From NCBI RefSeq assembly GCF_000800015.1, contig NZ_JUGR01000001.1, positions 868,001-932,000 of the forward strand: 64,000 nt of DNA, written 5' to 3'. How positions within the stretch are numbered: the first letter of the stretch is position 1; each line of letters opens with the position of its first letter. A program made the position numbers and the translations under genes. Source of the DNA: Terriglobus sp. TAA 43 (lineage in GTDB: Bacteria; Acidobacteriota; Terriglobia; Terriglobales; Acidobacteriaceae). This document shows positions 54,680 to 56,782 of this stretch, in pieces. The notes under the pieces were generated by a model. That model did no database searches. It saw nothing but the letters and a program-made list of their open reading frames with translations, and was not told the origin of the DNA.

Positions 54680-54904
54680 ATGGCAACCTTCGAAGAGCAA
54701 TTAAAGTCGCTGGAAAGCGTCGTGGAACGACTCGAAAAGGGAGACCTTCCCCTGGAAGAATCTCTCGCGCTTTTTGAACAAGGTGTCGCTCTGTCCGAAT
54801 CCTGCAAGAAGGAGTTGGATGCGGCGGAAGGCCGTGTTCAGGTCCTTCTGCAACGAGGCCGCAAGACGGAAGCAGAAGACCTTGCGCTAAGCGAAGACGA
54901 GTAA
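54680..54904 (+). CDS. xseB: Exodeoxyribonuclease VII small subunit
   Basis: 74 residues. FEEQLKSLESVVERLEKGDL and SLALFEQGVALSESCKKELD contain the conserved XseB helical repeats. The C-terminal tail is acidic (AEDLALSEDE). It binds the large nuclease subunit XseA, not seen in the window. Fourteen bases after the preceding fused methyltransferase gene, so probably cotranscribed. Confidence 0.9.
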   Translation: MATFEEQLKSLESVVERLEKGDLPLEESLALFEQGVALSESCKKELDAAEGRVQVLLQRGRKTEAEDLALSEDE

Positions 54905-55040
54905 TCTACCGCCTTGAATCTGCGCCTCTCAACAATCCATCTCGAAGAAACGAACTTCATGCGTAATCGCTATGGAGCGAAGGCGCTTGTAATGCGATAC
55001 TCGAACTTCACACTGCCACCAGAACTGGGAGAACGCCTGC

Positions 55041-55721
55041 TTGGGTAAGCCACCGATCAGCGATGCCGCGATGCGGAAGATGTACGAAACCATGAAGGCG
55101 CTTCGCAGCGCAAAGCGGGATGCCCCTACATGGACGGGCGTAACGCGAAATGCCAAGGCATCCGCAATGGCAGAGCCGGAATCACTACTGGTCGGAATTC
55201 TTTCGCAGTTGCATCGCCGCGACACCGTAGTCACGGCTGGTGAACTTCCGCTCCTGAAGACTGCTGTGGAAAGTTACTTTCCCATTTCCGTTGCATCGCT
55301 TCACACCGTCGTCTGTAACGGGTCAACTGAAGAATGCGCTTCGGTCGCAGCCGGCATGGCACTGCGGTCCATGGATGCCACACGTGAGCCGAAGCCTGTG
55401 ACCGTCGTTCTGCTCCAGGATTTTCCTGCACTCCAAGGGACTCTGAAATTGATGGAGTCCAACGATCTGCCCCTGCTCGTGATTGCAAAGGGCGAAGCGG
55501 AATCAAGAGCTGTTGCGGAAAAGCGTATGAGGTCCACCCAGGTTCCGATACTCCCGGCAGACGCAGCAGATGCAGTGGCTGTATGCCGCGTGATGCAGGA
55601 GTCTTTGCTGCGTGCTCGCAACGGCTGGGGCGGCTCGGTCATTCACGCCATCGCGGTTCCCGGGGCGGCTGATTCCGTGGCGGGAATGGAAGAACGCTTG
55701 CGCGCTCGCGGTCTGATCTAG
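55041..55721 (+). CDS. Degenerate dehydrogenase E1-alpha-like protein
   Basis: 226 residues from TTG 55041 (MGKPPISDAAMRKMYETMKAL). The N-terminal helix matches the opening of E1-alpha subunits of 2-oxo acid dehydrogenases (ISDAAMRKMYETM). In E1-alpha a GDG motif precedes NN about 25 residues later to hold thiamine diphosphate. Here the matching stretch (118-152) reads VTVVLLQDFPALQGTLKLME then NDLPLLVIAKGEA, without GDG or NN, and the protein is about 100 residues short. TTG has GGGAG ten bases upstream; ATGs at 55071 and 55080 are alternatives. Function unknown; a catalytic role is unlikely if the alignment is right. It follows xseB by 136 bases, and a strong terminator follows. Confidence 0.6.
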   Translation: MGKPPISDAAMRKMYETMKALRSAKRDAPTWTGVTRNAKASAMAEPESLLVGILSQLHRRDTVVTAGELPLLKTAVESYFPISVASLHTVVCNGSTEECASVAAGMALRSMDATREPKPVTVVLLQDFPALQGTLKLMESNDLPLLVIAKGEAESRAVAEKRMRSTQVPILPADAADAVAVCRVMQESLLRARNGWGGSVIHAIAVPGAADSVAGMEERLRARGLI

Positions 55722-55760
55722 ACGCTTCTCAGAAGCTCGCGTGACAATGAAGTCCGTGTA

Positions 55761-55798
55761 AATAAGAAGGGCATGGCGTCTGCCATGCCCTTCTTATT
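55761..55798. terminator. 17-bp perfect bidirectional terminator
   Basis: AATAAGAAGGGCATGGC pairs with GCCATGCCCTTCTTATT around loop GTCT. It lies between the convergent stops of the E1-like protein and the decarboxylase; the flanking T/A runs give a U-tract on both strands. Confidence 0.9.
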
Positions 55799-55813
55799 TA
55801 TATGTAGGACGAG

Positions 55814-56764
55814 CTATGCACTTGCAGCAACCCGCCCCTTGAAGTAATCCATGGAAAGCTCCAAACCTTCACGCAGATTCACCTTCGGCTCCCATCCCAA
55901 CAACGTTCTTGCCTTGGTGATATCAGGCTTGCGCTGCTTTGGATCGTCCTGTGGCATGGGTCGATAAACAATCTTGCTGCTGGACCCGGTCACTTCAAGC
56001 ACCGTTTTCGCGCAGTCAAGAATGGTCCACTCTTCGGGGTTTCCAATGTTCGTCGGCAGGGGCTCGCCGCTCTTTGCCAGCGCCACAATGCCGCGCACCA
56101 GGTCCGATTGGAAACAGAACGAACGCGTCTGCGATCCGTCACCGTAGATCGTCAGATCCTGTCCCTGGAGCGCCTGCATCATCAGGTTGCTGATCACACG
56201 GCCATCGTTCGGCTGCAGGCGCGGGCCATACGTGTTGAAGATGCGCACCATGCTCGTCCGCACCTTGTAGTAGTTGTGATAGGCCATGATCGTGGCCTCA
56301 GAGAATCGCTTCGCTTCGTCGTAGACCGAGCGCGGACCGATGGGATTCACGTTCCCCCAGTAGGTCTCTTTCTGCGGATGCTGTTCGGGGTCGCCGTAGC
56401 ACTCCGAAGTAGACGCGTGAAGGAATCCGGCGCCGTACTTCTTCGCCACTTCCAGCGCGTTCACCGTGCCATCGGAACCAACCCGCAACGTCTCCGGCCC
56501 CAGCTTCATGTAATCCACCGGGCTGGCAGGTGACGCGAAGTTAAACACGAAGTCCACTTGGCCAAAATCAAACGGCTTGCAGATATCCTGCTGCTCAAAC
56601 GAGAACTTTGAGTTTGACTTCAGGTGCGCCAGGTTCTCAAGCGAGCCCGTGCAGAGATTGTCGACGCCGACAACCTCTGCACCTTCGGCTAATACAGCAT
56701 CCGTCAGATGCGATCCAAGAAAACCTGCCGCGCCTGTAATCAGAACGCGCTTCCATTGCGCCAT
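55814..56764 (-). CDS. UDP-glucuronate decarboxylase (UDP-xylose synthase), extended SDR
   Basis: 316 residues. NAD-binding motif ITGAAGFLGSHLTDA, catalytic Ser/Tyr/Lys in ASTSECYGDP and RSVYDEAKRFSE, and RIFNTYGPRLQPNDGRVISN, all typical of Uxs. It converts UDP-glucuronate to UDP-xylose. ATG 56764 (MAQWKRVLITG) is preferred; an in-frame TTG at 56773 sits too near the GAGAGGA site. It is directly downstream of ugd on the same strand (18 bases), so the two steps UDP-Glc to UDP-GlcA to UDP-Xyl come from one operon. Confidence 0.9.
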   Translation of the reverse strand: MAQWKRVLITGAAGFLGSHLTDAVLAEGAEVVGVDNLCTGSLENLAHLKSNSKFSFEQQDICKPFDFGQVDFVFNFASPASPVDYMKLGPETLRVGSDGTVNALEVAKKYGAGFLHASTSECYGDPEQHPQKETYWGNVNPIGPRSVYDEAKRFSEATIMAYHNYYKVRTSMVRIFNTYGPRLQPNDGRVISNLMMQALQGQDLTIYGDGSQTRSFCFQSDLVRGIVALAKSGEPLPTNIGNPEEWTILDCAKTVLEVTGSSSKIVYRPMPQDDPKQRKPDITKARTLLGWEPKVNLREGLELSMDYFKGRVAASA

Positions 56765-56782
56765 GTCTTGCAATCCTCTCGC

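Follow-up and report, generated by a model that had tools for sequence, protein, structure and literature searches.

We describe here E1alpha*, a degenerate relative of the alpha subunit of 2-oxo acid dehydrogenase E1 in Terriglobus sp. TAA 43. Its gene occupies positions 55041–55721 of the forward strand of the window, by which we mean the whole 64,000-nucleotide stretch analysed (G000:C1:868001-932000, in a genome of 4.95 Mb). The explanation that we favor, with moderate confidence, is that E1alpha* is a non-catalytic E1-alpha pseudoenzyme, retained after the enzyme to which it belonged was displaced; on this view its ancestor was the alpha subunit of an E1 of the heterotetrameric type, from a 2-oxo acid (probably pyruvate) dehydrogenase, and E1alpha* would neither bind ThDP nor decarboxylate. 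Degenerate E1-alphas, as classified from their sequences, are a family in the Acidobacteriaceae and their relatives, and form mainly one clade among intact E1-alphas. An earlier, sequence-only reading of this DNA had recognized an E1-alpha-like protein, and the predicted fold, the matches to family PF00676 and the tree bear it out on this point; its picture of a stand-alone remnant has to be given up, since E1alpha* belongs to a family.

Taken by itself, the window protein falls below threshold against Pfam PF00676 (E1_dh; E=0.077, 12.4 bits against a cut-off of 22) and far below the cut-off of 411 for TIGR03181 (E=0.0013, 17.7 bits), and a PDB sequence search with it alone gave no match. We consider that the E1-alpha resemblance is nevertheless not a matter of chance, because 62 of 63 sequences of the family alignment A4 match PF00676 at E<=0.001, the window protein being the sole exception, because the A4 profile matches solved E1-alpha chains in the PDB (best 3.1e-44), and because the predicted fold is that of E1-alpha. 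(A4 combines the window protein with 62 references, L144 and L145 having been left out of the 64 that were prepared; no start was found for L135 and L143, and no motif was read in L103.) With A4 as the input alignment, AlphaFold2 models the window protein at a mean pLDDT of 86.5 and a pTM of 0.85, and all 50 rows among the Foldseek matches listed are of the E1-alpha type, one of them an integrative model. Structure prediction and fold comparison had been proposed with the earlier reading, and they place E1-alpha first: VIA-align superimposes the model on Thermus E1-alpha 1um9_A over 212 residues with a Z of 20.4 and an rmsd of 2.9 A, with other ThDP enzymes behind at a Z of about 16. Nor do profile searches assign the protein elsewhere; they point only to E1-alpha, and no other Pfam family was matched at E<=0.001 among the 63 A4 sequences. 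An E1-alpha fold and E1-alpha descent are therefore supported by the model and the profiles.

The loss of the ThDP motif is seen in the alignment to the intact E1-alpha L069, in which the GDG columns correspond to Q126-D127-F128 of the window protein (55416–55424, forward strand) and the NN columns to G151-E152 (55491–55496, forward strand). The sequence-only reading had given these residues as LQD and KG, and although its register was one residue off, the loss that it described is real. Using L069 as the reference, we compared the columns of 18 intact rows with those of 98 degenerate rows, degenerate meaning without the full motif. Lost from the degenerate rows are both glycines of GDG and both asparagines of NN, two residues of the SHRD loop (P89 and R92), three of the helix that follows this loop (H180, N184 and F185), and the greater part of the C-terminal loop between T263 and W286 (L069 columns 263–286 are altered or gapped); in the window protein, the deletion site of this loop (YRxxxHS...YR in intact E1-alphas) lies at residues 205–210 (55653–55670, forward strand). 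The C-terminal loop of E1-alpha has a role in ThDP binding and phosphorylation, and we take the lost residues to be those involved, in E1 structures, in binding ThDP and in forming the interface with the beta subunit. A few degenerate relatives keep part of the motif, as with NN in L087 and G062. Throughout a clade, residue substitutions and deletions of loops have removed the motif. A local frameshift or a mis-called gene was considered and rejected, as the frame is open and dN/dS low in three genomes and the motif is lost across many.

The degenerate rows keep the N-terminal helix (L34, Y38 and R45 in L069 numbering), D85, the LP that precedes the NN strand, and the series V231-D232..D235..A238-Y240-R241-V242..E245...R251.G253.G255. 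The best retained segment of the window protein, DxxDxxAxxRVxxExxxxxRxxxG at residues 174–197 (55560–55631, forward strand), contains D174, D177, A180, R183, V184, E187 and R193, which are invariant in all 63 A4 sequences, as is D61. Retention of the core of the fold in the predicted model, together with the invariance of D61, D174, D177, R183, E187 and R193, could be accommodated by a model in which E1alpha* is still an enzyme or a ligand-binding protein, its vacated ThDP pocket taking another small molecule; R183, V184 and E187 (R241, V242 and E245 of L069) are moreover more uniform in degenerate rows (0.99–1.00) than in an intact set that includes four distant outgroup rows (0.72–0.89). We regard this model as very improbable. 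The A4-invariant residues are also common in intact rows (0.72–1.00) and so look structural, and the degenerate rows show no new conserved motif in the GDG and NN columns.

When 150 genomes of the same family were searched with the window protein, 51 gave matches at E<=0.001, none of them with an internal stop (some longer profile matches run over one stop, which in the window genome is the gene's own terminal stop). Only two genomes hold close relatives, G095 (93% identity) and G031 (82%), and the others match at 25–55%, often over part of the length. In a collection of species genomes, a 10-sequence alignment (reduced from 30) gave 142 pattern hits and 103 confirmed places, and the best 80 of the 103, which were kept, all come from Acidobacteria or genera of that group; one of them (L074) is from Acidipila rosea. 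A phylum-wide profile search matched 230 of 297 genomes, ordinary E1-alphas included. A tree was built from 116 rows, of which 98 are degenerate, 14 are intact ingroup rows and four are intact outgroup rows. The degenerate rows group in a single clade (SH-aLRT 95) that is nested among those of the intact ingroup; ten rows (fragments, duplicates, the wrongly extracted L007 and L019 and one empty row) were left out. A 184-row tree, in which several genomes are present twice, by name and by handle, requires a minimum of three changes, namely in a 139-row clade (support 92), in L087 together with the copy from its genome, the position of which is unsupported, and in G062 alone. Quick methods were used for both trees, and that of 116 rows carries long-branch and composition warnings. 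In it the window trio (G000, G095 and G031; branch 2.28) meets the long-branched G128, and because these long branches meet, the place of the trio inside the degenerate clade is unsure.

E1alpha* is under purifying selection, and evolution tends to be faster in degenerate copies than in intact E1-alphas. Nei-Gojobori dN/dS is 0.054 for G000/G095, 0.095 for G000/G031 and 0.101 for G095/G031, at dS of 0.53–1.07, and 0.075 for G128/G148, two further genomes of the window's genus; the values for metF, xseB and the epimerase gene in the trio are 0.015–0.054 (ugd comparisons with G095, in which 28 codons were aligned, were dropped), and those for aceE and wzi in G128/G148 are 0.020 and 0.039. In further pairs, degenerate copies give 0.083–0.444 and intact copies 0.022–0.305, ranges that overlap and that were obtained with stop-to-stop frames, with some pairs repeating a genome and saturated-dS pairs yielding no ratio. 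The low values in the trio, and values below 0.45 in all degenerate pairs measured, indicate constraint, in agreement with the earlier view of a gene maintained rather than decaying. With faster evolution and wide divergence both in evidence, part of the degenerate family may be eroding. E1alpha* could in principle be a relic under relaxed constraint, decaying slowly with a frame that has stayed open without a selected function, and its shortening, the large divergence (mean column identity in A4 is 29%), the higher dN/dS relative to intact E1-alphas, and the 64 of 150 genomes in which neither form was classified are all in keeping with this. We think it decidedly unlikely, however, given the dN/dS values in the trio and in G128/G148, the absence of internal stops, the invariant charged residues in A4, and the retention of E1alpha* after its move to a new neighbourhood. 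Since selection still preserves E1alpha*, a new non-catalytic job is probable.

The open reading frame of 226 residues (stop codon included in the coordinates) with its TTG start is as first described, and the start and the bases before it are kept in the alignment to G095 and G031; a possible Shine-Dalgarno sequence, GGGAGAA (55027–55033, forward strand), read directly and identical in these two genomes, lies 7 nt 5' of the TTG. The upstream neighbour at 54680–54904 (forward strand), which we take from its sequence to be xseB (metF is named likewise), is 136 bp away, and the gene order is the same in G095 and G031. Convergent to E1alpha* is an NAD-dependent epimerase-like gene (55814–56773, reverse strand; named by Pfam on a homologue from another locus) that travels with it within the window's genus. 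Between the two lies a perfect inverted repeat with 19-bp arms and a 4-nt loop (55759–55800), probably a terminator common to the two convergent genes. The strong terminator of the earlier reading is this repeat; a simple consensus scan of the region found three terminator-like sites against a shuffle mean of 3.0, which is no excess. A strongly conserved stretch of 119 bp (54930–55048, forward strand) lies upstream of and overlaps the start, with 97% identity to G095 and 90% to G031, whereas divergence at synonymous sites within E1alpha* is 38% and 57%, respectively; it is present in three of 19 genomes of the genus. An Rfam search with it gave no match, and fold z-scores of 0.08, 1.43 and 0.03 give no signal of RNA structure; perhaps it is a promoter or leader. 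We also note a 44-residue open reading frame (54914–55048), the stop codon of which overlaps the TTG of E1alpha*, such that translational coupling is conceivable. As a conserved small protein it found no support: most differences among the three species, judged by eye, alter amino acids, and it is therefore probably not a conserved peptide.

Comparison of loci across the family suggests where E1alpha* came from. Neighbour clusters were named by Pfam on one member each and include ArgJ, Wzi, E1-beta (PF02779/PF02780), AceE (PF17831), the epimerase and UDP-glucose dehydrogenase, and synteny was counted within 3.2 kb at those named loci whose flanks each extend for 3.2 kb or more (9 of 13 intact and 48 of 66 degenerate). 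E1-beta lies downstream at all nine intact loci and at none of the 48 degenerate loci, argJ upstream at six of nine and 34 of 48, and wzi downstream at two of nine and 30 of 48, respectively; aceE is found on either side at no intact locus and at 12 degenerate loci, co-directional in all 12. The commonest place of E1alpha* is argJ-[E1alpha*]-wzi. In the closest intact lineage (L069, L071, L073 and L108), E1-beta is directly downstream, followed by wzi, and argJ or its place is upstream where the flank is present; other intact E1-alpha loci have glucoamylase or other genes at that position. Because the closest intact lineage has it, argJ-E1alpha-E1beta-wzi is probably the ancestral order of the degenerate locus.

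Orthologues beside xseB, for which a search had been proposed with the earlier reading, were found in G000, G095 and G031, and as a general conserved site the xseB neighbourhood was rejected, xseB being found in those three alone among 30 loci. In the window's genus, G128 and G148 have the order argJ-aceE-E1alpha*-wzi-epimerase-ugd, and G031 has metF-xseB-E1alpha*-wzi-epimerase-ugd; wzi was not found at the E1alpha* locus of G095 or G000. In the window genome argJ-aceE is kept elsewhere without E1alpha*, about 0.75 Mb away. Since G128 and G148 keep the argJ-linked block and argJ-aceE of the window genome stands without E1alpha*, a rearrangement seems to have moved E1alpha* and the block downstream of it behind xseB in the window lineage.

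Better profile matches were fetched from the 150-genome sample and classified by motif (DISPLACEMENT). Matches at E<=1e-10 occur in 144 of the 150 genomes, many of them ordinary other E1-alphas, and a degenerate copy is present in 68, of which 62 (G062 among them) are degenerate-only and six also have an intact orthologue, carrying an intact E1-alpha/beta pair together with the degenerate copy; a further 18 genomes are intact-only. L215, in which GDG is kept and which is probably another E1-alpha, was left out of the degenerate genomes, and G038, G043, G101 and G103, weaker orthologues at less than 130 bits, were retained. An E1-beta orthologue (at least 69% identity; 25 orthologues at 3.8e-153 or better) is present in 18 of 18 intact-only genomes versus none of the 62 degenerate-only ones. 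The best match of the window genome to the E1-beta query has E=7.3e-77, and none of its five PF02779 matches is an E1-beta-sized frame. One of the five is a fused E1alpha-E1beta enzyme with an open frame of 734 residues (L031, G000:C1:256154), and similar fused-E1-like frames of about 730–800 residues occur in many genomes of the family.

The likely replacement in most degenerate genomes is AceE, and in some PFOR (pyruvate:ferredoxin oxidoreductase). AceE (E<=1e-50, searched in the 150 genomes, up to G149) is present in four of 18 intact-only and 53 of 62 degenerate-only genomes (Fisher p 9.5e-7, kinship ignored), while a kinship-aware independent-pairs test yielded one supported pair and so had no power. 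These counts invite a model in which E1alpha* is a regulatory or assembly subunit specific to the AceE-type pyruvate dehydrogenase, the successor of the old E1, and the co-directional aceE at 12 of the 48 degenerate loci and the adjacent (less than 1 kb), co-directional arrangement by hand count in 17 of the 59 genomes with both genes (E1alpha* first in eight, aceE first in nine) are in line with it. We nonetheless consider this model unlikely. Nine degenerate-only genomes (G002, G008, G020, G081, G083, G102, G122, G124 and G144) yielded no match to AceE, and completeness is 98% or higher in five of them; in a search of eight genomes, these five and three others, PFOR was above the cut-off in four of the five (G083, G102, G124 and G144), fragmentary in G008, below the cut-off in G001, which has the intact pair, and without a match in G000 and G128. 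In addition, aceE of the window genome stays at argJ, far from E1alpha*, 53 of the 116 genomes with AceE were classed neither as degenerate nor as intact, and the AceE association is confounded by kinship, with the adjacency perhaps merely reflecting inherited insertion at one locus. Because genomes with AceE and genomes with PFOR both carry E1alpha*, we consider a shared component (such as an E2 core or the fused E1) or a new one to be a likelier partner than AceE by itself. We also observe that full-length AceE scores in the family fall into two bands, of about 1370–1470 and 1260–1330 bits, which may represent two AceE lineages, and that E1alpha* appears by eye to be commoner in genomes of the lower band.

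We return to the pseudoenzyme explanation, for which we propose that another enzyme arrived, that E1-beta was then lost, and that the ThDP site eroded thereafter, with E1alpha* being kept for a protein-protein role, scaffolding or regulating some other component of a 2-oxo acid dehydrogenase. The regulatory or structural role offered by the sequence-only reading is likewise one that we infer. The more specific proposal, that after displacement the family was co-opted to regulate central pyruvate or 2-oxo acid metabolism, or to serve it as a scaffold, without catalysis, acting on the shared E2 core, the fused E1alpha-beta or AceE, is a tentative one, which we advance as possible while expecting that it could well be wrong. 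Living genomes of one genus, g62, look like stages along such a path: G138 is intact without AceE, G114 is intact with AceE, and G062 has AceE, a motif reading DEG..NN, and an E1-beta remnant of 26 residues (73% identity) that adjoins E1-alpha and ends in a stop; the fully degenerate family lies beyond. The G062 remnant (L221 6054–6131, reverse strand) is situated between the eroding E1-alpha and a glucoamylase gene. Among 64 downstream stretches of other degenerate loci searched for E1-beta remnants, there was one match, at chance level (E=0.79). G004 offers a mirror image of E1alpha*, an E1-beta orthologue (L220 4395–5369, forward strand; 72% identity) for which the surrounding 9 kb yielded no E1-alpha.

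E1alpha* resembles the E1-alphas of the pyruvate and branched-chain dehydrogenases PDH and BCKDH (PF00676, TIGR03181; PDB 1um9, 1w88) in fold, order of elements and N-terminal helix, and shares with them the DxxD...RAR.G.GP segment and common descent, but differs in lacking GDG...NN and the YR..HS loop, in the changed P89 and R92 of SHRD, in its length (226 residues versus about 330–360), and in having no adjoining E1-beta. AceE, the homodimeric pyruvate dehydrogenase E1 (TIGR00759, PF17831), is a catalytic protein of about 890 residues encoded by a separate gene, present in most E1alpha* genomes and sometimes adjoining. With metabolic-enzyme pseudoenzymes in general, E1alpha* has in common a kept fold, a lost catalytic motif and maintained selection, and yeast Thi3 is a precedent for a pseudoenzyme retained from a metabolic enzyme. 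In the titles and abstracts of the literature on E1-alpha and ThDP pseudoenzymes we found no E1-alpha pseudoenzyme, and in those on acidobacterial pyruvate dehydrogenase subunits and the replacement of heterotetrameric by homodimeric E1 we found nothing relevant.

Displacement of an enzyme is expected to end in loss of the old gene, but here one subunit persists under selection. Because most members match PF00676 even though they lack the ThDP motif, degenerate members may be annotated as ThDP-dependent E1 subunits. The living genomes of one genus that resemble stages of the path make this a tractable case of pseudoenzyme birth. If the co-option proposal is true, an E1 subunit has outlived its own enzyme by a change of job. 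In this soil bacterium, and in many related ones, E1alpha* probably does new, non-catalytic work.
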